A DNA stretch of 64,000 nt from Pseudalkalibacillus berkeleyi. GTDB taxonomy: Bacteria; Bacillota; Bacilli; Bacillales; Fictibacillaceae. The stretch is from contig NZ_JAKIJS010000001.1 in assembly GCF_021608225.1 (NCBI RefSeq), positions 186,001 through 250,000 of the forward strand, read 5' to 3'. This document shows, one piece after another, positions 15,102-25,520 of this stretch. The notes under the pieces were generated by a model that saw nothing but the letters and a program-made list of their open reading frames with translations, made no database searches and was not told the origin of the DNA. The number at the start of each line of letters is the position of its first letter. The first letter of the stretch is position 1. The translations under genes and the position numbers were made by a program.

Positions 15102-17498
15102 ATGAATAAGGGGAAAATTACATCTACAGCCTTAGCAGTCATGATGGGGCTGAGCACGCTTACATACGGTGTTGTCGCTTCACCACAATTAGCTGAAGCG
15201 GAAAAAGCACGTGAAAGTGTCACGCAACATTACGGGGGATCACCGATCGATCTTGGTATCGCAAATGACGAAAAATTGATTGAGATGCTAAAGAAAGAAG
15301 GGACAATTGCACCAAGTGCTAGTCCAGCTGAAGCAGAAAAGGCATTAAAGAAGTTCTTGAAAGAAAAGTCTAATGGCGCAGAGCATGCACATGAAGCGGG
15401 AGAACTTCAAGAAGAAGCTCAAGAATCAAAAGAGAAACTGAAAAAAGAAATGAAAGAAAAAGGCATGAAGCCTGGTAAACACAAAAAGAAAAAGAACAAG
15501 AAAACCGTAGATGGCATTGAACTAGAAGATTATGATGGGCAAATGCGTACGGATAAAGTCTTGGCAATCCTCATTGATTATCCGGACAAGCCTCATAATT
15601 CAATGACGTCAGATGAAACAGACATGTATTACGAAGGTGAGAATGCATACTCTCGTGAACATTACCAAGATATGTTATTTGGTACAGGTGGTTGGACAGG
15701 TCCAGACGGGAAAAACTATGTATCTATGAAACAATATTATGAGCAACAATCAGGTGGAAGTTACTCTGTCGAAGGTGAGGTTGCAGGCTGGTACACAGCT
15801 AGCAAACCAGCGGCGGAATATGGTGGAAACTACCCAACTGAAGATGGTAGTGATGTAGATGCACGTGGACTAGTTAAGGAAGCGCTGGCTGCAGTTGTTG
15901 CAGATCCTTCGGTAAATATTGCTGATTACGATCAATGGGATCGTTATGACTTGGATGGAGATGGGAATTACCTTGAAGCCGATGGTTTAGTCGACCATTT
16001 GATGATTATTCACTCTGGAGTTGGTGAGGAAGCTGGTGGAGGTTCACTGGGCTCTGATGCAATTTGGTCTCACCGTTGGAACTTAGGTGGTGTACATGGT
16101 TTAGAGGGTACAGAAGCAACCGTTCCTTATTGGGGCGGAGAGATGGCAGCTTACGATTACACGATTGAACCTGAAGATGGAGCCGTTGGAGTTATGGCCC
16201 ATGAATTTGCACATGATCTCGGACTTCCAGATGAGTATGATACTCAGTACACTGGCGCTGGTGAACCAGTAAGCTACTGGTCAATCATGTCAAGCGGAAG
16301 CTGGGCTGGAGATATTCCGGGTACTATGCCGACAGGTTTTAGCCCTTATATGAGAGAAATGCTACAAGGGTCTGCTGTTGTAGACAGTGCAGGAACACAA
16401 GGGAACTGGTTAACTGGAACAGAGTTTGATCTAAGTGAAATTGATAAAGAAGGTGTAGAAGTATTACTAGATGAGGGAGCATCAAAAGGTACAAACAATG
16501 ATGTAGTCAAGGTAACCCTTCCACAAAAAGAAACAGTCGTCAACGAGCCTGCAAGTGGAGCTTATGAGTATTTCTCTGGCAGTGCAGATGATCTACACAC
16601 GTATTTGAAAAAGACGGTTGACCTTACAAACGCATCGTCTGCTCAATTTAATTTTAAAGCATGGTATGACATTGAAACAGATTGGGATTATGCTTATGTA
16701 ACTGTGAATGGTGACCCAATTGCAAGTGATATTACAACGAATGAAAATCCGTATGACAGTAATTTAGGAAATGGTATTACAGGTTCTTCTAACGGATGGA
16801 TTGATGCATCATTTGACCTTTCTGCTTATGCTGGACAAGAAGTTGAAGTAGCAATTGAATATGTAACAGATGCAGCAGTATCAAACCCTGGTTTGTTTGC
16901 TGATGACCTATCTGTTGTAGTCAATGGAGAAGAAGTATTCTTTGACGACGTAGAAGGAGAAGCACTATTTACTCTTGATGGCTTTACGAAGAACGATGGC
17001 ATTAAGCGTTCAGATCATTACTACCTATTAGAATGGCGTAGTCACAACGGTGTTGACCAAGGATTAAAGAACATTCGTCGTGGAGATAGCATCATGGAGT
17101 TTAACAAAGGTTTAGTTGTTTGGTACGTTGACAAGAAGTATAGTGACAACTGGACAGGTAATCATCCTGGTGAAGGATTCATAGGTGTAGTCGATGCGGA
17201 TCAAAAGACAGTTAAGTGGAGTGATGATTCTGTTGCATCTACACGTTATCAAGTGCACGATGCAGCATTCAGCCTTGAGAAGAGTGAGAAAATGTTCTTA
17301 GATTACTCTGAACTACTTGGTCTTACTATGAAGGATAACCACACGAAGAAGAATAAAATGTTCAACGATAAAAAGAATTACTTAAATGAAGGTTTACCTG
17401 AAGCTGGACGCAATGTTCCTAATTTCGGCTTAAAATTTACAGTCGTTGCGGATAGTAAGGATGGTACAGTAGGAAAAATAAAGTTACAACGTAAATAA
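15102..17498 (+). CDS. inhA: secreted immune inhibitor A metalloprotease (M6)
   Basis: A 798-residue exported protease. Residues 1-33 form a signal peptide, then comes a lysine/glutamate-rich propeptide (about 35-135). The catalytic zinc motif HEFAHDLGLPDEY starts at residue 367, followed by YWSIMSSGSW with the Met-turn. NVSPYM-like and MAM-like beta regions occupy the C-terminal half. InhA enzymes of Bacillus degrade host antimicrobial peptides and matrix proteins; in environmental species they serve as general secreted proteases. GAGGAGG precedes the ATG. The gene has its own promoter and a strong terminator. Confidence 0.93.
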   Translation: MNKGKITSTALAVMMGLSTLTYGVVASPQLAEAEKARESVTQHYGGSPIDLGIANDEKLIEMLKKEGTIAPSASPAEAEKALKKFLKEKSNGAEHAHEAGELQEEAQESKEKLKKEMKEKGMKPGKHKKKKNKKTVDGIELEDYDGQMRTDKVLAILIDYPDKPHNSMTSDETDMYYEGENAYSREHYQDMLFGTGGWTGPDGKNYVSMKQYYEQQSGGSYSVEGEVAGWYTASKPAAEYGGNYPTEDGSDVDARGLVKEALAAVVADPSVNIADYDQWDRYDLDGDGNYLEADGLVDHLMIIHSGVGEEAGGGSLGSDAIWSHRWNLGGVHGLEGTEATVPYWGGEMAAYDYTIEPEDGAVGVMAHEFAHDLGLPDEYDTQYTGAGEPVSYWSIMSSGSWAGDIPGTMPTGFSPYMREMLQGSAVVDSAGTQGNWLTGTEFDLSEIDKEGVEVLLDEGASKGTNNDVVKVTLPQKETVVNEPASGAYEYFSGSADDLHTYLKKTVDLTNASSAQFNFKAWYDIETDWDYAYVTVNGDPIASDITTNENPYDSNLGNGITGSSNGWIDASFDLSAYAGQEVEVAIEYVTDAAVSNPGLFADDLSVVVNGEEVFFDDVEGEALFTLDGFTKNDGIKRSDHYYLLEWRSHNGVDQGLKNIRRGDSIMEFNKGLVVWYVDKKYSDNWTGNHPGEGFIGVVDADQKTVKWSDDSVASTRYQVHDAAFSLEKSEKMFLDYSELLGLTMKDNHTKKNKMFNDKKNYLNEGLPEAGRNVPNFGLKFTVVADSKDGTVGKIKLQRK

Positions 17499-19166: not shown

Positions 19167-20051
19167 ATGAAGAAAGTAGTCATTGCTGGAGGAACGGGAT
19201 TCATAGGTCAGTACTTTCAAAAGAAGTTCGCCGATCTGGGTTATGAGGTCATCATTATTTCTAGAAAGAAACCACATGTCACGTGGGAGGAACCTGATGA
19301 AATAAAAGATGCGATAGAAAACGCTGAGATGCTCATTAACCTAGCAGGTAAATCAGTTAACTGCCGCTATCATGCTAAGAATAGAGAGACCATCCTCAAT
19401 TCAAGAGTTGAAACAACTGAAATTTTAGGGGAAGCGATAATCGAATGTCACAGTCCACCAGAACTCTGGATTAATTCTAGTACGGCAACGATATATCGTC
19501 ATGCTGAAGACCGCCCGATGACAGAAGAAACGGGCGAAATCGGATCTGGGTTCTCCGTTAATGTAGCAAAGAATTGGGAGGAAGTGTTTTTCAACTTTAC
19601 ATTACCTAAAACAAGACAAATTGCTCTGAGGACTGCGATTGTGTTAGGTTCTGGTGGTGGCGTTATGACCCCATATAAAAACCTCGTGAAATTAGGTTTG
19701 GGAGGCATTCATGGACCTGGAACACAAATGTTCAGTTGGATTCATATTGAAGATTTGTTTAATATCGTACTATTTTTGAGAGACAACAATGATTTAAGCG
19801 GGGTTTTCAATTGCTCTTCACCAAACCCAGTAACGAATCGAGAATTGATGCGAACATTACGTAAGAAATTAAACAAAAATGTTGGACTACCTGCTCCAAG
19901 GTGGATGCTTGAGATTGGAACGTTCTTTTTGAGGACTGAAACAGAACTAGTATTGAAAAGTCGGTGGGTGGTACCAGATCGTCTTGAACGGGTAGGCTAT
20001 ACGTTCACTTTTCCAGCCCTGGATCGTGCATTAGAAGAAAGTCTTTCTTAA
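19167..20051 (+). CDS. TIGR01777-family NAD(P)-dependent epimerase
   Basis: A 294-residue short-chain dehydrogenase-like protein. GGTGFIGQYF at residues 7-16 is the Rossmann nucleotide motif. INLAGKSVNCRYHAKNRETILNSRVETT is the hallmark of the TIGR01777 group (B. subtilis YfhF, E. coli YfcH). The active-site tyrosine region is SSTATIYRHAEDRPMTEETGEIG. The start at 19167 follows AAGAGATGATGG; the longer frame from 19125 adds residues with no site. The physiological substrate of this group is unknown. A HEAT-repeat gene follows 14 bases later. Confidence 0.87.
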   Translation: MKKVVIAGGTGFIGQYFQKKFADLGYEVIIISRKKPHVTWEEPDEIKDAIENAEMLINLAGKSVNCRYHAKNRETILNSRVETTEILGEAIIECHSPPELWINSSTATIYRHAEDRPMTEETGEIGSGFSVNVAKNWEEVFFNFTLPKTRQIALRTAIVLGSGGGVMTPYKNLVKLGLGGIHGPGTQMFSWIHIEDLFNIVLFLRDNNDLSGVFNCSSPNPVTNRELMRTLRKKLNKNVGLPAPRWMLEIGTFFLRTETELVLKSRWVVPDRLERVGYTFTFPALDRALEESLS

Positions 20052-20065
20052 ATGGAGGAATTCAA

Positions 20066-20692
20066 ATGGTCATTTCAGAACTTGCCTCACAGCTTGATCG
20101 TAAAGACGAGCAACCGAATATTGAACTCGCAAGAAGGCTAGTGAATGAAAAGGATTACGCTGGTGTGAAGGAAGTGATCGAAAACCTTTCGAATAAAAAT
20201 AAGAAGATTCAAAGTGATTGCATTAAAGTTGTGTATGAAGTGGGTGAAATGGAACCGGAAATGATCAGCAATTATGCACTCATTTTCATTGATTTATTGA
20301 ATAGTCGCAACAACCGACTTGTATGGGGAAGTATGTCAGCGTTATCTACTATTGCAAGTGAAGCTTCAGAAGTATTGATGAATCATGTACAGGAGATCAT
20401 TTCGGCTATGAAGACAGGCTCTGTTATTACAGTCGATAAAGGTGTGATGACACTCGCAAAACTCGCGTCTGTAAATGAGATGAACAATGAGCGAATCTTC
20501 CCAGTACTTATTCAACACTTAGAAACATGTAGAGTGAAAGAGATACCGCAGCATGCAGAAAGCACGTTGATTGCTGTAACGGAACACAACAAAGAACACT
20601 TCATAACAACGCTTAAACAAAGAGCGCAATATATGACAGCCCCTCAATATAAACGGATTAAAAAGATCTATAAGAGTTTGAATGTTGAATAG
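20066..20692 (+). CDS. HEAT-repeat protein
   Basis: A 208-residue all-helical protein with about five paired helices of the HEAT/ARM type, for example NKKIQSDCIKVVYEVGEMEPEMISNYALIFIDLL and NRLVWGSMSALSTIASEASEVLMNHVQEI. Such solenoids act as binding scaffolds, so no reaction is expected. GGAGGAATTC precedes the ATG, 14 bases after the epimerase stop, so the two form an operon. No signal peptide. No more exact family was recognised. Confidence 0.7.
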   Translation: MVISELASQLDRKDEQPNIELARRLVNEKDYAGVKEVIENLSNKNKKIQSDCIKVVYEVGEMEPEMISNYALIFIDLLNSRNNRLVWGSMSALSTIASEASEVLMNHVQEIISAMKTGSVITVDKGVMTLAKLASVNEMNNERIFPVLIQHLETCRVKEIPQHAESTLIAVTEHNKEHFITTLKQRAQYMTAPQYKRIKKIYKSLNVE

Positions 20693-20696
20693 ATAC

Positions 20697-20725
20697 TTGA
20701 ATTAATAGGATACTTACATTATATT
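20697..20725 (+). promoter_or_regulatory. promoter of the MutS2-like leader transcript
   Basis: TTGAAT, a spacer of exactly 17 bases and TATATT. Transcription would start near 20732, some 300 bases ahead of the coding start. Confidence 0.65.
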
Positions 20726-20758
20726 AAAGATAGATTTTAATAAAAAGGTGATGCATGT

Positions 20759-20782
20759 ATGTTACTGAGGGTTCTTAACTAA
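20759..20782 (+). CDS. candidate leader peptide uORF
   Basis: AAGGTG eight bases upstream could start MLRVLN (20759-20782). Two overlapping alternatives are MYVTEGS from 20755 and MHVCY from 20751. All end within or just before the GTTCTTAAC arm of the leader stem, so which start is used does not alter the idea that a ribosome here would block that helix. Confidence 0.4.
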   Translation: MLLRVLN

Positions 20783-20967
20783 CGCAAATTTTGATACAGA
20801 GTAATGGGAAGCTCTTTACTTTAAAAAAGAGTTTTCAAAACGACGGGAGACGTATGCCCGTTTTCCATACTCTGATTTGCTTGTTAAGAACACACTCGAA
20901 CATATAATTCAGATCTATGCTATTTGGTGTAGTCTAATTATTTGTATCGCTTTCGAAAACTGCCAAG

Positions 20968-21001
20968 CCGCAGGTGACGATGTGTTCACCTGTGGTTTTT
21001 T
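20968..21001 (+). terminator. attenuator terminator before the MutS2-like gene
   Basis: CCGCAGGTGA pairs with TCACCTGTGG (one G-T pair), eight-base loop, six T. It lies after the leader and before the Shine-Dalgarno site. Confidence 0.85.
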
Positions 21002-21036
21002 ATGTTTCAAAAAATAAATTCAGGAGGATTAATCCA

Positions 21037-22938
21037 TTGAATCACACTACAGAAATGATGTTAGAGTTTAACAAAATTAAAGAACAATTAAGTCAATATA
21101 CATTATCAGCACAAGGGAAAGCATTAATTGATAAAATGCATCCATATTCGAACAAGCGAGCGATTGAACAACGGTTAATGGAGGTATCCGAAGCGAAGGC
21201 TATTCTTCAAAAAAATAGTGTGCCAATCCATGGACTTAGCGGGACAGATCAATTATTAGGTCAATTCAATAAAGGGATTGCCCTCACACCTAATCAATTA
21301 GAGGCAGTCTTGGATCTAATAGATGGTGGATTAAGGATTAAACAATTCATGAAGAGGAATGGTTCGCTAGGTCCTACCGTCTCCAGTTATGCAGACTCGA
21401 TTTACGACTTGAAGGAATTAGGAGAGACGTTACGCTTATCAATACGAAACGGTCAAATTCAAGATCATGCTAGTAAAGAACTTGCAAAATTACGAAAGCA
21501 AATATCTACTTTAGAAAGCCGCATTAAGGAAACTGTATATCAAGTCGTTCGTTCTTCTACGAAAAGCAAATTTTTGCAAGAGCCGATCGTAAGTCAAAGG
21601 GATGGACGATACGTCGTACCTGTCAAAAAAGAATACCGAAAGCAATTTGGAGGGCAAGTAATAGATGCCTCGGCAAGTGGATCGACCATTTACATGGAAC
21701 CGAAAGGGGTACAAAAGGATCAAACGAAATTAGCTGAAGTTCGCTCTGATGAATACCTCGAGGAGCAAAGAATTCTTTCAATTTTAACAGGGCACGTTGA
21801 AGGTTGCGAACAAGAATTAAGGATCAACATTGAAACAATGGCCCACTATGATTTTATTTTTGCAAAGGCTAAATTCAGTGATGAGATTTCGGGAAATCCA
21901 GTTCATATTATTGATGATCCTATCTTGAGGTTAAAAGCTGCGCGCCACCCATTATTAAGAGAAGAAGCCAAACCCTTAAGTTTGGAGCTAGGCTCTTCAT
22001 TTAAGACGCTCGTCATTACCGGTCCGAATACGGGCGGAAAGACGGTTACTTTGAAAACGGCAGGGCTCATTACGATGATGACTTTATCAGGTTTACATGT
22101 GCCAGCATCAAACTCAAGCGAAGTCGGAATATTTGAGTCCATTCTAACGGATATCGGGGACGGTCAAAGCATCCAACAATCATTAAGTACCTTTTCATCG
22201 AGATTGACGAATGTGATTGAAATCTTAAAAAGCACAAACCGACGTACGCTCGTTTTATTAGATGAACTTGGAGCGGGTACGGACCCAGCTGAAGGTATGG
22301 GACTCGCTATAGCAATCCTTGAACAATTGAATGAAATGGGTGCAAAGACGATTGCGACAACTCATTATAACGATATAAAAACATTCGCAGCTGAGCATCC
22401 GGATTTTGAGAATGCTCGTATGGAATTTGATTTAGAAACACTCAAGCCCCTTTATCAGTTGACGATTGGTAAACCAGGGAATAGTCAGGCTTTCCATATT
22501 GCACGTAAACTAGGACTACATCCTGTGATACTTGCCAAAGCACATGAGAGAACGTATGGGGAACAGGTTCATTATGACCATGATGCCATTCAAGATCTTC
22601 AAATCACATCTGGAGTAGAAAAGAAAATTCACCAAAAGAGAACGGTCAAATCGAATTACAAAAAGGGAGATAGTGTGTTCATTCCTTCTCAAAATCTGAA
22701 AGCGATCGTGTATAAAGTAGAAGATGAGAACGGAGAAATCACACTATTTAAGGATGGAGAACTCTTTATGATGAATTACAAAAGAGTGAAACTAGATCTA
22801 CGAGCAGAACAACTTTATCCAGAAGGTTATGATTTCGATATTCTCTTTGAATCTGTAGAGAACCGAAAAAAGAAAAGATTAATGGAAAAGCGCCATGTAG
22901 AGGGATTAACAATTGAATATCCAGACGAAAACGTGTGA
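21037..22938 (+). CDS. MutS2-like ATPase lacking the Smr nuclease domain
   Basis: A 633-residue MutS-family protein. Residues about 60-270 form the coiled clamp (RKQISTLESRIKETVYQVV, REDGRYVVPVKKEYR-like QRDGRYVVPVKKEYRKQ). The ATPase starts near residue 329 with GPNTGGKTVTLKT and continues DIGDGQSIQQSLSTFSS and LLDELGAGTDPAEG. A KOW-like segment (KGDSVFIPSQNLKAIVYK) follows, and the protein ends without the LDxRG Smr nuclease domain of the roughly 785-residue MutS2/RqcU. MutS2 of B. subtilis senses collided ribosomes, so a ribosome role is plausible here. TTG 21037 follows GGAGGATT; the longer frame from 20974 runs through the terminator. An acetyltransferase gene follows 18 bases later. Confidence 0.85.
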   Translation: MNHTTEMMLEFNKIKEQLSQYTLSAQGKALIDKMHPYSNKRAIEQRLMEVSEAKAILQKNSVPIHGLSGTDQLLGQFNKGIALTPNQLEAVLDLIDGGLRIKQFMKRNGSLGPTVSSYADSIYDLKELGETLRLSIRNGQIQDHASKELAKLRKQISTLESRIKETVYQVVRSSTKSKFLQEPIVSQRDGRYVVPVKKEYRKQFGGQVIDASASGSTIYMEPKGVQKDQTKLAEVRSDEYLEEQRILSILTGHVEGCEQELRINIETMAHYDFIFAKAKFSDEISGNPVHIIDDPILRLKAARHPLLREEAKPLSLELGSSFKTLVITGPNTGGKTVTLKTAGLITMMTLSGLHVPASNSSEVGIFESILTDIGDGQSIQQSLSTFSSRLTNVIEILKSTNRRTLVLLDELGAGTDPAEGMGLAIAILEQLNEMGAKTIATTHYNDIKTFAAEHPDFENARMEFDLETLKPLYQLTIGKPGNSQAFHIARKLGLHPVILAKAHERTYGEQVHYDHDAIQDLQITSGVEKKIHQKRTVKSNYKKGDSVFIPSQNLKAIVYKVEDENGEITLFKDGELFMMNYKRVKLDLRAEQLYPEGYDFDILFESVENRKKKRLMEKRHVEGLTIEYPDENV

Positions 22939-22956: not shown

Positions 22957-23505
22957 GTGGAGAAGGTTATAAAGTTTTTAAAAGGTGAGCGCATTTATTT
23001 ACGTCCAGTGACAAAAGATGATTTGGATTGGCTCTACTACCATACAATGAATGACCAAGAAGGTAGACGATTAACAGGTACTCAAGCAGTTTATAGTCAA
23101 CAAGGCATTCAGAATTGGTTTGATCGGAATTCGACAGATGACAGCCGAATGGATCTCATTATTTGTTTACAGGAAGGAAATCAACGGATTGGGGACATTG
23201 CAATGATGGATATTGATCACCTTAATCGCAATGCAATTGTCCGGATCGCGATTTTTGAAGGAGATAAACTTGGAAAAGGATATGGTACTGAAGCGATGTC
23301 ATTACTCCTGGAATACGGGTTTGAAGTTCTAAATCTTCATCGTGTAGGTCTCGATGTCTTTGCTTTTAATACTAGAGGCATTAAATCTTATGAAAAACTC
23401 GGATTTCAACAAGAAGGTGTCATAAGAGATCAGCTTTATTACGATGGAGAATATCACGACTCAATTTTAATGGGCGTCATGAAGGATGAGTTTCTAAAGA
23501 ACTAA
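22957..23505 (+). CDS. GNAT acetyltransferase, RimJ/RimL type
   Basis: A 182-residue acetyltransferase beginning GERIYLRPVTKDDLDWL, with the CoA-binding segment GDKLGKGYGTEAMSLLLEYGFEVLNLHRVGLDVFAFNTRGIKSYEKLGFQQEG at about residues 105-157. This is the RimJ/RimL arrangement; members acetylate ribosomal proteins, tRNA-linked amino groups or small molecules. GTG start after AGGGA. It lies 18 bases behind the MutS2-like gene and ahead of a terminator, so it probably shares the attenuator-controlled transcript, which hints at a translation-related role. The substrate is unknown. Confidence 0.82.
   Translation: MEKVIKFLKGERIYLRPVTKDDLDWLYYHTMNDQEGRRLTGTQAVYSQQGIQNWFDRNSTDDSRMDLIICLQEGNQRIGDIAMMDIDHLNRNAIVRIAIFEGDKLGKGYGTEAMSLLLEYGFEVLNLHRVGLDVFAFNTRGIKSYEKLGFQQEGVIRDQLYYDGEYHDSILMGVMKDEFLKN

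Positions 23506-23567: not shown

Positions 23568-25520
<1,953 letters not shown>

Follow-up and report, generated by a model that had tools for sequence, protein, structure and literature searches.

A leader resembling ribosome-mediated transcription attenuators precedes an Smr-less MutS2-like gene in Pseudalkalibacillus berkeleyi

The leader of vmlR, an ABC-F gene of Bacillus subtilis, is a ribosome-mediated attenuator (excerpts of PMC9226507), tetM is counted among transcription attenuators in a review (excerpt of PMC5418344), and hflXr/rli80 of Listeria monocytogenes is a case of small-ORF (open reading frame) attenuation of a ribosome-splitting-factor paralog (excerpts of PMC6310831). Here we analyzed a 64-kilobase (kb) window, positions 186,001-250,000 of a contig in the 3.5-Mb genome of Pseudalkalibacillus berkeleyi, in which a leader at 20697-21037 (window coordinates throughout) precedes a gene for a MutS2-like protein lacking the Smr part. 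We conclude, with a probability of about 0.8, that this leader is a ribosome-mediated transcription attenuator of the vmlR/hflXr type, controlling a probable drug-induced ribosome-splitting paralog. This class of mechanism is known; new, as far as the literature searched goes, are the leader family, the link to an Smr-less MutS2 paralog and the breadth of genes. A full-text search of the open-licence PubMed Central literature found no paper for 'MutS2' with 'uORF' (upstream open reading frame); 'MutS2' and 'upstream open reading frame' co-occur there in a paper that is, by its title, on human ZAK-alpha.

The leader and its conservation

An initial annotation had proposed a promoter, short uORFs behind AAGGTG, a hairpin closed by a long-range helix (here P1) and an intrinsic terminator just before the gene's ribosome site. 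On inspection of the sequence, every one of these parts could be located in the leader.

20697-20725, + strand: promoter-like site TTGAAT-17 nt-TATATT (nt, nucleotides), 9 of 12 consensus positions
20745-20750, + strand: ribosome site of the uORF, AAGGTG, from sequence
20759-20782, + strand: 7-codon uORF MLLRVLN-stop (ATG at 20759), a pattern present in 105 of 114 MutS2-like leaders
20771-20779, + strand: 5' arm of P1, GTTCTTAAC (GTT CTT AAC), the last three sense codons of the uORF, from sequence and pairing counts
20786-20796, + strand: A/U motif AAATTTTGATA, of the AAUUnnAUA type, after the uORF stop codon
20883-20891, + strand: 3' arm of P1, GTTAAGAAC, pairing with GTTCTTAAC
20888-20894, + strand: predicted antiterminator 5' strand GAACACA, pairing with 20981-20987 and forming in the stalled model
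20965-20998, + strand: intrinsic terminator hairpin followed by a T-run, from a terminator scan
20981-20987, + strand: predicted antiterminator 3' strand TGTGTTC, inside the terminator, from pairing and the stalled model
21022-21027, + strand: ribosome site of the MutS2-like gene, AGGAGG, from sequence

Two other ATGs, at 20751 and 20755, open short frames that, unlike MLLRVLN-stop, are not conserved in relatives. The region 20731-21010 folds at -92.3 kcal/mol, against a shuffle mean of -58.3 (z -7.15; 0 of 200 shuffles as stable), and terminator-like sites number 2 in 1.5 kb, against a shuffle mean of 0.7. The earlier statement that no known riboswitch consensus fits also stands: at gathering score Rfam gave no match in the window, and 20 ortholog loci yielded transfer RNA genes only. 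A permissive search of 601 bases for a known RNA family returned chance-level matches only.

Searching for the protein in 34 genomes of the family (limit 1e-150) and 397 of the order (limit 1e-140), we found a MutS2-like match in 24 and 169, respectively. The closest named record with the gene in these searches was Rossellomorea aquimaris EaN35-1 (77% identity), and Fictibacillus nanhaiensis stood at 46%. A subset of the matching genomes supplied the leader sample, the upstream DNA of 114 Smr-less MutS2-like genes. Left out of it were a full MutS2 (L002; L numbers denote loci), a match beginning inside the protein (L044) and three named records equivalent in kind to loci already in the sample (L027, L029, L030).

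A uORF made of a start codon, three free codons, V or I, L or F, N and a stop was present in 105 of the 114 leaders, starting with ATG in 86, GTG in 18 and TTG in 1; GTTCTTAACTAA itself occurs in 95 of the 105, and codons 2-4 vary widely. This strict pattern presupposes the 7-codon length and 12-nt spacing, and a looser search returned the same frames, some with an extra in-frame start upstream. Seven of the nine leaders without the strict pattern (L031, L047, L100, L115, L117, L118, L119, L120 and L121) still show, by eye, a related or altered leader: in L118 and L100 it differs by a single base in the uORF, L031 and L047 combine a uORF with a different helix, and L117, L119 and L121 have 7-codon uORFs, again with a different helix. 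At L115 and L120 no uORF was seen by eye in the 420 nt upstream. L117, L119 and L121 form a second Smr-less MutS2-like group, at about 40% identity. L119 has a long complementarity between UGAAGAUACCU and AGGUAUCUUCA near the ribosome site of the gene, a hint that this group may also be controlled in translation.

Each of the 105 leaders with the strict uORF carries a terminator-like hairpin ahead of the gene, and 63 carry two or three. The promoter-like site of the window leader, if taken alone, is not above chance (3 in 20000-21500 versus a shuffle mean of 4.8), but 95 of the 105 leaders have a sigma-A-like site at most 110 nt upstream of the uORF, compared with 11 of 103 control stretches taken 200-310 nt upstream. 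For the antiterminator pairing described below, we set aside eight leaders without a scanned terminator 2 and sorted the remaining 97 into 54 groups, which removes relatedness only in part. The AAUUnnAUA-type motif is found in 51 of 54 non-redundant leaders (5% of shuffles) and a TTNTTT motif in 45 (18.5% of shuffles), with UNYG behind it in 29 (2.5%). The single-terminator layout drawn in the initial annotation holds for the window leader; many relatives depart from it, with two or three terminators in 63 of 105 and TTNTTT in most.

Full pairing (9 of 9 bases) of codons 5-7 with a downstream stretch occurs in 151 of 171 leaders, compared with 2% of shuffles; codons 2-4, taken as a control, reach it in 6 of 171. 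A wrong frame was taken in about seven wider loci of the 171 (L155, L158, L199, L216, L222, L225 and L227), and these were counted as they fell. P1 is also kept where both sides have changed, as in GTTCTTAAA:TTTAAGAAC (3), ATTCTTAAA:TTTAAGAAT (4) and GTTCTTAAT:ATTAAGAAC (1). The uORF had been said to overlap the 5' arm of the closing helix; more exactly, its last three sense codons are that arm. Conservation of uORF, stem and terminator in Smr-less orthologs had been named beforehand as the condition on which the proposal depended, and all three are conserved, at the frequencies given above.

The near-invariance of the last codons and the UAA, and the fact that the uORF ends exactly at P1, would also suit a sensor of one specific event, such as termination being slow at ...VLN-UAA or this peptide being arrested by a drug. 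We regard such a stop-codon or arrest-peptide sensor as unlikely: the invariance is expected from pairing in P1 and the antiterminator, the amino acids shift with the helix (ILK, VLK, INLA), and the variability of codons 2-4 speaks against an arrest peptide. Considerably less probable is a metabolite or ion riboswitch, with the P1-closed domain and its A/U motif as aptamer and the uORF incidental. The conserved, unpaired AAUUnnAUA and the P1-closed architecture fit this idea, but the 7-codon uORF is retained when P1 changes, related leaders precede ribosome-protection genes, and Rfam matches are absent from the window and the ortholog leaders searched.

Antiterminator pairing and the stalled ribosome

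GAACACA, which starts in the 3' arm of P1, is complementary to the loop and 3' arm of the terminator (TGTGTTC). Across lineages the two partners change together (GAACAAUG:CAUUGUUC, GAACACAG:CUGUGUUC, GAACACUG:CAGUGUUC and CAAGCA:UGCUUG), and each leader pairs better with its own terminator (-8.56 kcal/mol) than across lineages (-7.06 kcal/mol; permutation p 5e-5, 54 groups). We modelled a stall by barring ribosome-covered bases from pairing and folding growing transcripts. The antiterminator formed in 48 of 54 stalled leaders and in 1 of 54 without the constraint; P1 formed in 53 of 54 unconstrained leaders. In the controls for stalled folding, the count was 46 of 54 with the own terminator, 25, 30 and 27 of 54 with swapped terminators, and 10 of 54 with a shuffled flank. 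The suggestion that a stalled ribosome would change the fold is thereby carried into a modelled antiterminator, with one detail different: the strand involved is the 3' arm of P1 plus its flank. Together, conservation, co-varying antiterminator pairing and structure modelling support the proposal of a uORF-controlled attenuator.

With freely moving ribosomes, the uORF would be translated and vacated, its last three codons would pair with GTTAAGAAC, and P1 would act as an anti-antiterminator; transcription would then end at the terminator just before the gene. A ribosome held on the uORF would cover the 5' arm of P1 and free the 3' arm and flank (GAACACA); as antiterminator these would pair with the loop and 3' arm of the terminator and let RNA polymerase read into the MutS2-like gene. 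In vmlR the leading edge of the ribosome reaches 16 nt beyond the start codon's A (excerpts of PMC9226507), and P1 begins at uORF nucleotide 13, so a ribosome on any of the first codons would disturb or cover the 5' arm. Because codons 2-4 vary and the AUG lies 12 nt before P1, a stall in the first codons should suffice, and the leader would respond generally to early stalls, such as those expected from several ribosome-targeting drugs. Translation of the uORF, pausing, read-through on stalling and drug specificity are what the precedents of vmlR, hflXr and tet(M) would lead us to expect.

The MutS2-like protein and the genes behind related leaders

21037-22938, + strand: Smr-less MutS2-like ATPase, 633 amino acids, TTG start, from domain and family matches

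The product contains MutS domain V (MutS_V, 121.8 bits), and its best NCBIfam model is mutS2 (TIGR01069), at 592.6 bits against a curated cut-off of 400. That match covers positions 2-525 of the 790 in the model, indicating that the Smr part is missing, and no Smr family was found among 15 members at an expectation value (E) of up to 0.1. Judged by its sequence, which lacks the C-terminal Smr used as the criterion for MutS2, the product is classed as a MutS2-like paralog, not MutS2. A fuller MutS2 (open frame of 792 amino acids, 43% identity) and a MutS (875 amino acids) are also encoded in this genome. Against the genome's own MutS2, the product stands out by a short KOW-like segment and a basic, conserved C-terminal tail and by the loss of the long linker and Smr; across 15 orthologs the Walker A and B residues do not vary. 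For a defence-system role, which was set aside, PADLOC yielded AbiLi only (E 0.0047). In two public records the gene is annotated 'endonuclease MutS2' and 'DNA mismatch repair protein MutS'.

B. subtilis MutS2 cannot do without its Walker motifs but retains part of its activity without Smr, and its KOW-uS10 contact can be reached on all ribosomes (excerpts of PMC10897456). By analogy, an Smr-less form might act on stalled ribosomes without a collision; its constant presence would then do damage, and the attenuator would be explained. We take a stress-induced ribosome-splitting ATPase to be the most likely product, splitting being assigned on the same analogy.

The gene is occasionally lost while the leader lingers, as leaders persist before frameshifted or deleted MutS2-like genes in L154, L155 and L156. 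In the window, a GNAT acetyltransferase gene (22957-23505, + strand) begins 18 nt past the MutS2-like gene, possibly on the same transcript; a GNAT gene likewise follows the leader in L157, L158 and L214. Just 5' of the leader, 20066-20692 encodes a 208-amino-acid protein without a Pfam or NCBIfam family at E 0.001, and large genes that by eye resemble secreted metalloproteases (15102-17498 and 23820-25520) flank the region.

We built a covariance model, R1, from 61 leaders and searched with it at E up to 0.001. It finds the leader in 98 of 299 genomes of the order, 84 of 398 of the class and 22 of 398 of the phylum; these sets overlap. Run over 17 sources (119,389 bases) at E up to 1, R1 returned 17 known places (L227 included) and nine mirror images only. 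Genes were classified behind 67 fetched loci, a subset of all matches: 58 from the class and phylum searches and nine odd cases from the order search. The 58 comprise 29 MutS2-like genes, 11 BpsA, 5 Tet(M)-type, 4 ABC-F, 4 ABC exporters, and single cases of GNAT (in second place after the leader), APH (with an ABC-F gene after it) and glycosyltransferase; the other two are an LmrB-like/DHA2 efflux pump (L222) and a probable false positive (L227). Among the nine odd cases are three broken MutS2-like genes, two GNAT, and one each of methyltransferase, alpha/beta hydrolase, ABC-F and BpsA remnant. Plasmid records with a MutS-type match at E up to 1e-60 numbered 16, all below 60% identity, and in 10 of them one place covered at least 80% of the query; the two of these records that were examined, from Cytobacillus spongiae (95.8 bits) and Paenibacillus sp. 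IHB B 3084 (47.1 bits), both have the leader, from which we draw no conclusion on mobility.

The 7-codon design recurs in many of the wider leaders (MRQGILK-stop, MIKGVLK-stop, MFIHVLN-stop) and is absent from L198, L205 and L206 (MFIRS-stop), L204 and L202. Antiterminator pairing in the two Tet(M)-type leaders examined is -12.5 kcal/mol (L201) and -16.3 kcal/mol (L200). Tet(M), ABC-F and exporter leaders score low with R1 (33-45 bits) and may therefore be convergent. The initial annotation had also made the gene an inducible ribosome-rescue or drug-response factor. Related leaders before Tet(M), ABC-F and LmrB-like genes favour that part of it; induction, the drug and the activity of the protein we infer. 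Autoregulation, in which the MutS2-like protein, or stalled-ribosome complexes bound by it, would bind the leader and control its own gene, is very improbable: MutS2 proteins bind nucleic acid and ribosomes, but the same or a related leader precedes genes without a relation to MutS2.

Two genomes of one genus have a second leader copy before a GNAT gene, several kb from the MutS2-like gene (L157, 3633-3771, and L158, where the copy has an extra base in the uORF helix). In several genomes of the class, BpsA-like branched-chain polyamine synthase genes lie behind the leader, at L173, L179-L181, L183, L208-L211, L213 and L215; a polyamine response to ribosome stalling would be unexpected.

Several observations weigh against an attenuator, or against its extension to the protein and the wider family. 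The 61-row alignment has a nearly invariant P1 without a double change, and thus says little by itself on P1 pairing; some of the 171 leaders came from searches with a model in which P1 is included, and for these the pairing is partly a selection effect. Neither the TTNTTT motif nor terminator 1 occurs in the window leader, L004 or L005, the three leaders from the window's genus. The antiterminator also forms with swapped terminators in roughly half of the leaders, because GAAC/GTTC is common. In 46 of 54 leaders folded with the stall, five or more terminator pairs are also present at one exposure or another, and the window leader settles on the terminator when this is nearly fully exposed; the choice must therefore be kinetic, made during transcription. 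Two further pairings were rejected: another antiterminator, between CAUAGC and the 5' arm of terminator 1, is strong but conserved in sequence and does not co-vary (p 0.20, n = 44), and a pseudoknot of UAUGCC, inside P1, with GGUCAUA behind P1 is no better with own than with cross-lineage partners (p 0.55, n = 56). R1 misses L031, L115, L117, L119, L120 and L121 and finds L047 at E 0.17 only, and a terminator scan of the ABC-F leaders L204-L206 found none. For the protein, Pfam MSSS (MutS2 SH3, KOW-like) gave weak matches in 3 of 15 members. An AlphaFold2 model from six sequences was poor (mean predicted local distance difference test, pLDDT, 58.2; predicted template modelling score, pTM, 0.37); it has strands at 546-580, the KOW-like region looked at, and with it Foldseek ranked MutS2 entries first, as weak support.

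A wider reading, which we hold tentatively and at somewhat less than even odds, is that a portable stall sensor has been taken up across Bacillota by at least 10 kinds of genes, and that the MutS2-like protein represents a new class of antibiotic-induced rescue factor splitting drug-stalled single ribosomes. The sensor is defined here by a 7-codon uORF ending in V/I-L-N/K-stop, self-pairing last codons, the A/U motif and a terminator. On this account the protein would have lost Smr, the collision sensor, and kept the ATPase and KOW-like parts, and would have to stay silenced by a sensor of drug-stalled single ribosomes. The regulation ties a widespread MutS2-like gene to how cells respond to ribosome-targeting drugs, and so provides a function that experiments can test; the place of related leaders before known antibiotic-resistance genes in other bacteria suggests a part for the gene, so far uncharacterised, in coping with drugs that block ribosomes. 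The RNA element offers a handle for further hidden drug-response genes, with the BpsA, GNAT and methyltransferase genes behind the leader as candidates, and the Smr-less paralog is a natural test of how a MutS2-type ATPase acts without the collision sensor.

Comparison with known systems

B. subtilis MutS2 (8qpp, 7qv3) matches the core and ATPase of the window protein at 392 bits over residues 8-515, with the ATPase motifs intact. The window protein differs in lacking the long linker and Smr and in having the short KOW-like segment and basic C-terminal tail. Its gene also lies behind an attenuator-like leader, whereas R1 detects none at the MutS2 (L002) and MutS (L003) loci of the same genome.

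The tet(M) leader (L201) is alike in its 7-codon uORF, MRQGILK-stop, whose last codons form P1, and in having a terminator and an antiterminator; it differs in the sequence of P1 and matches R1 weakly (34-37 bits). One tet(M)-type leader scored 35.9 bits with R1 (E 5e-6 in 119,389 bases), a weak match with which descent and convergence both fit. In 16 wider loci, L201 was the only one with an Rfam match at gathering score, to RF02864, 'Enterococcus sRNA 30' (sRNA, small RNA); the leader family is present in Rfam only as the tet(M) form. As this match (L201, 1528-1692) sits in the leader of a Tet(M) gene, RF02864 may be the tet(M) leader rather than an independent sRNA.

With hflXr/rli80 the leader shares small-ORF attenuation of a probable ribosome-splitting-factor paralog, in hflXr linked to lincomycin and erythromycin. 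There the ORF has 14 amino acids with an RLR motif and the protein is the GTPase HflX, not a MutS2-type ATPase; a VLN-type helix is not described for hflXr in the excerpts of PMC6310831.

The vmlR leader likewise has a uORF in an anti-antiterminator stem, an antiterminator freed by the stalled ribosome and an intrinsic terminator, as well as a TTATTT NusG pause motif after a hairpin, which most relatives of the window leader have and the window's genus does not (excerpts of PMC9226507). In the same excerpts, the vmlR uORF has 3 codons (MIN) and lies in a bulge, whereas the uORF here has 7, of which the last three are the arm of the helix. The leader family differs further in the two or three terminators of 63 of 105 relatives, and in that the gene it precedes is a MutS2 paralog.

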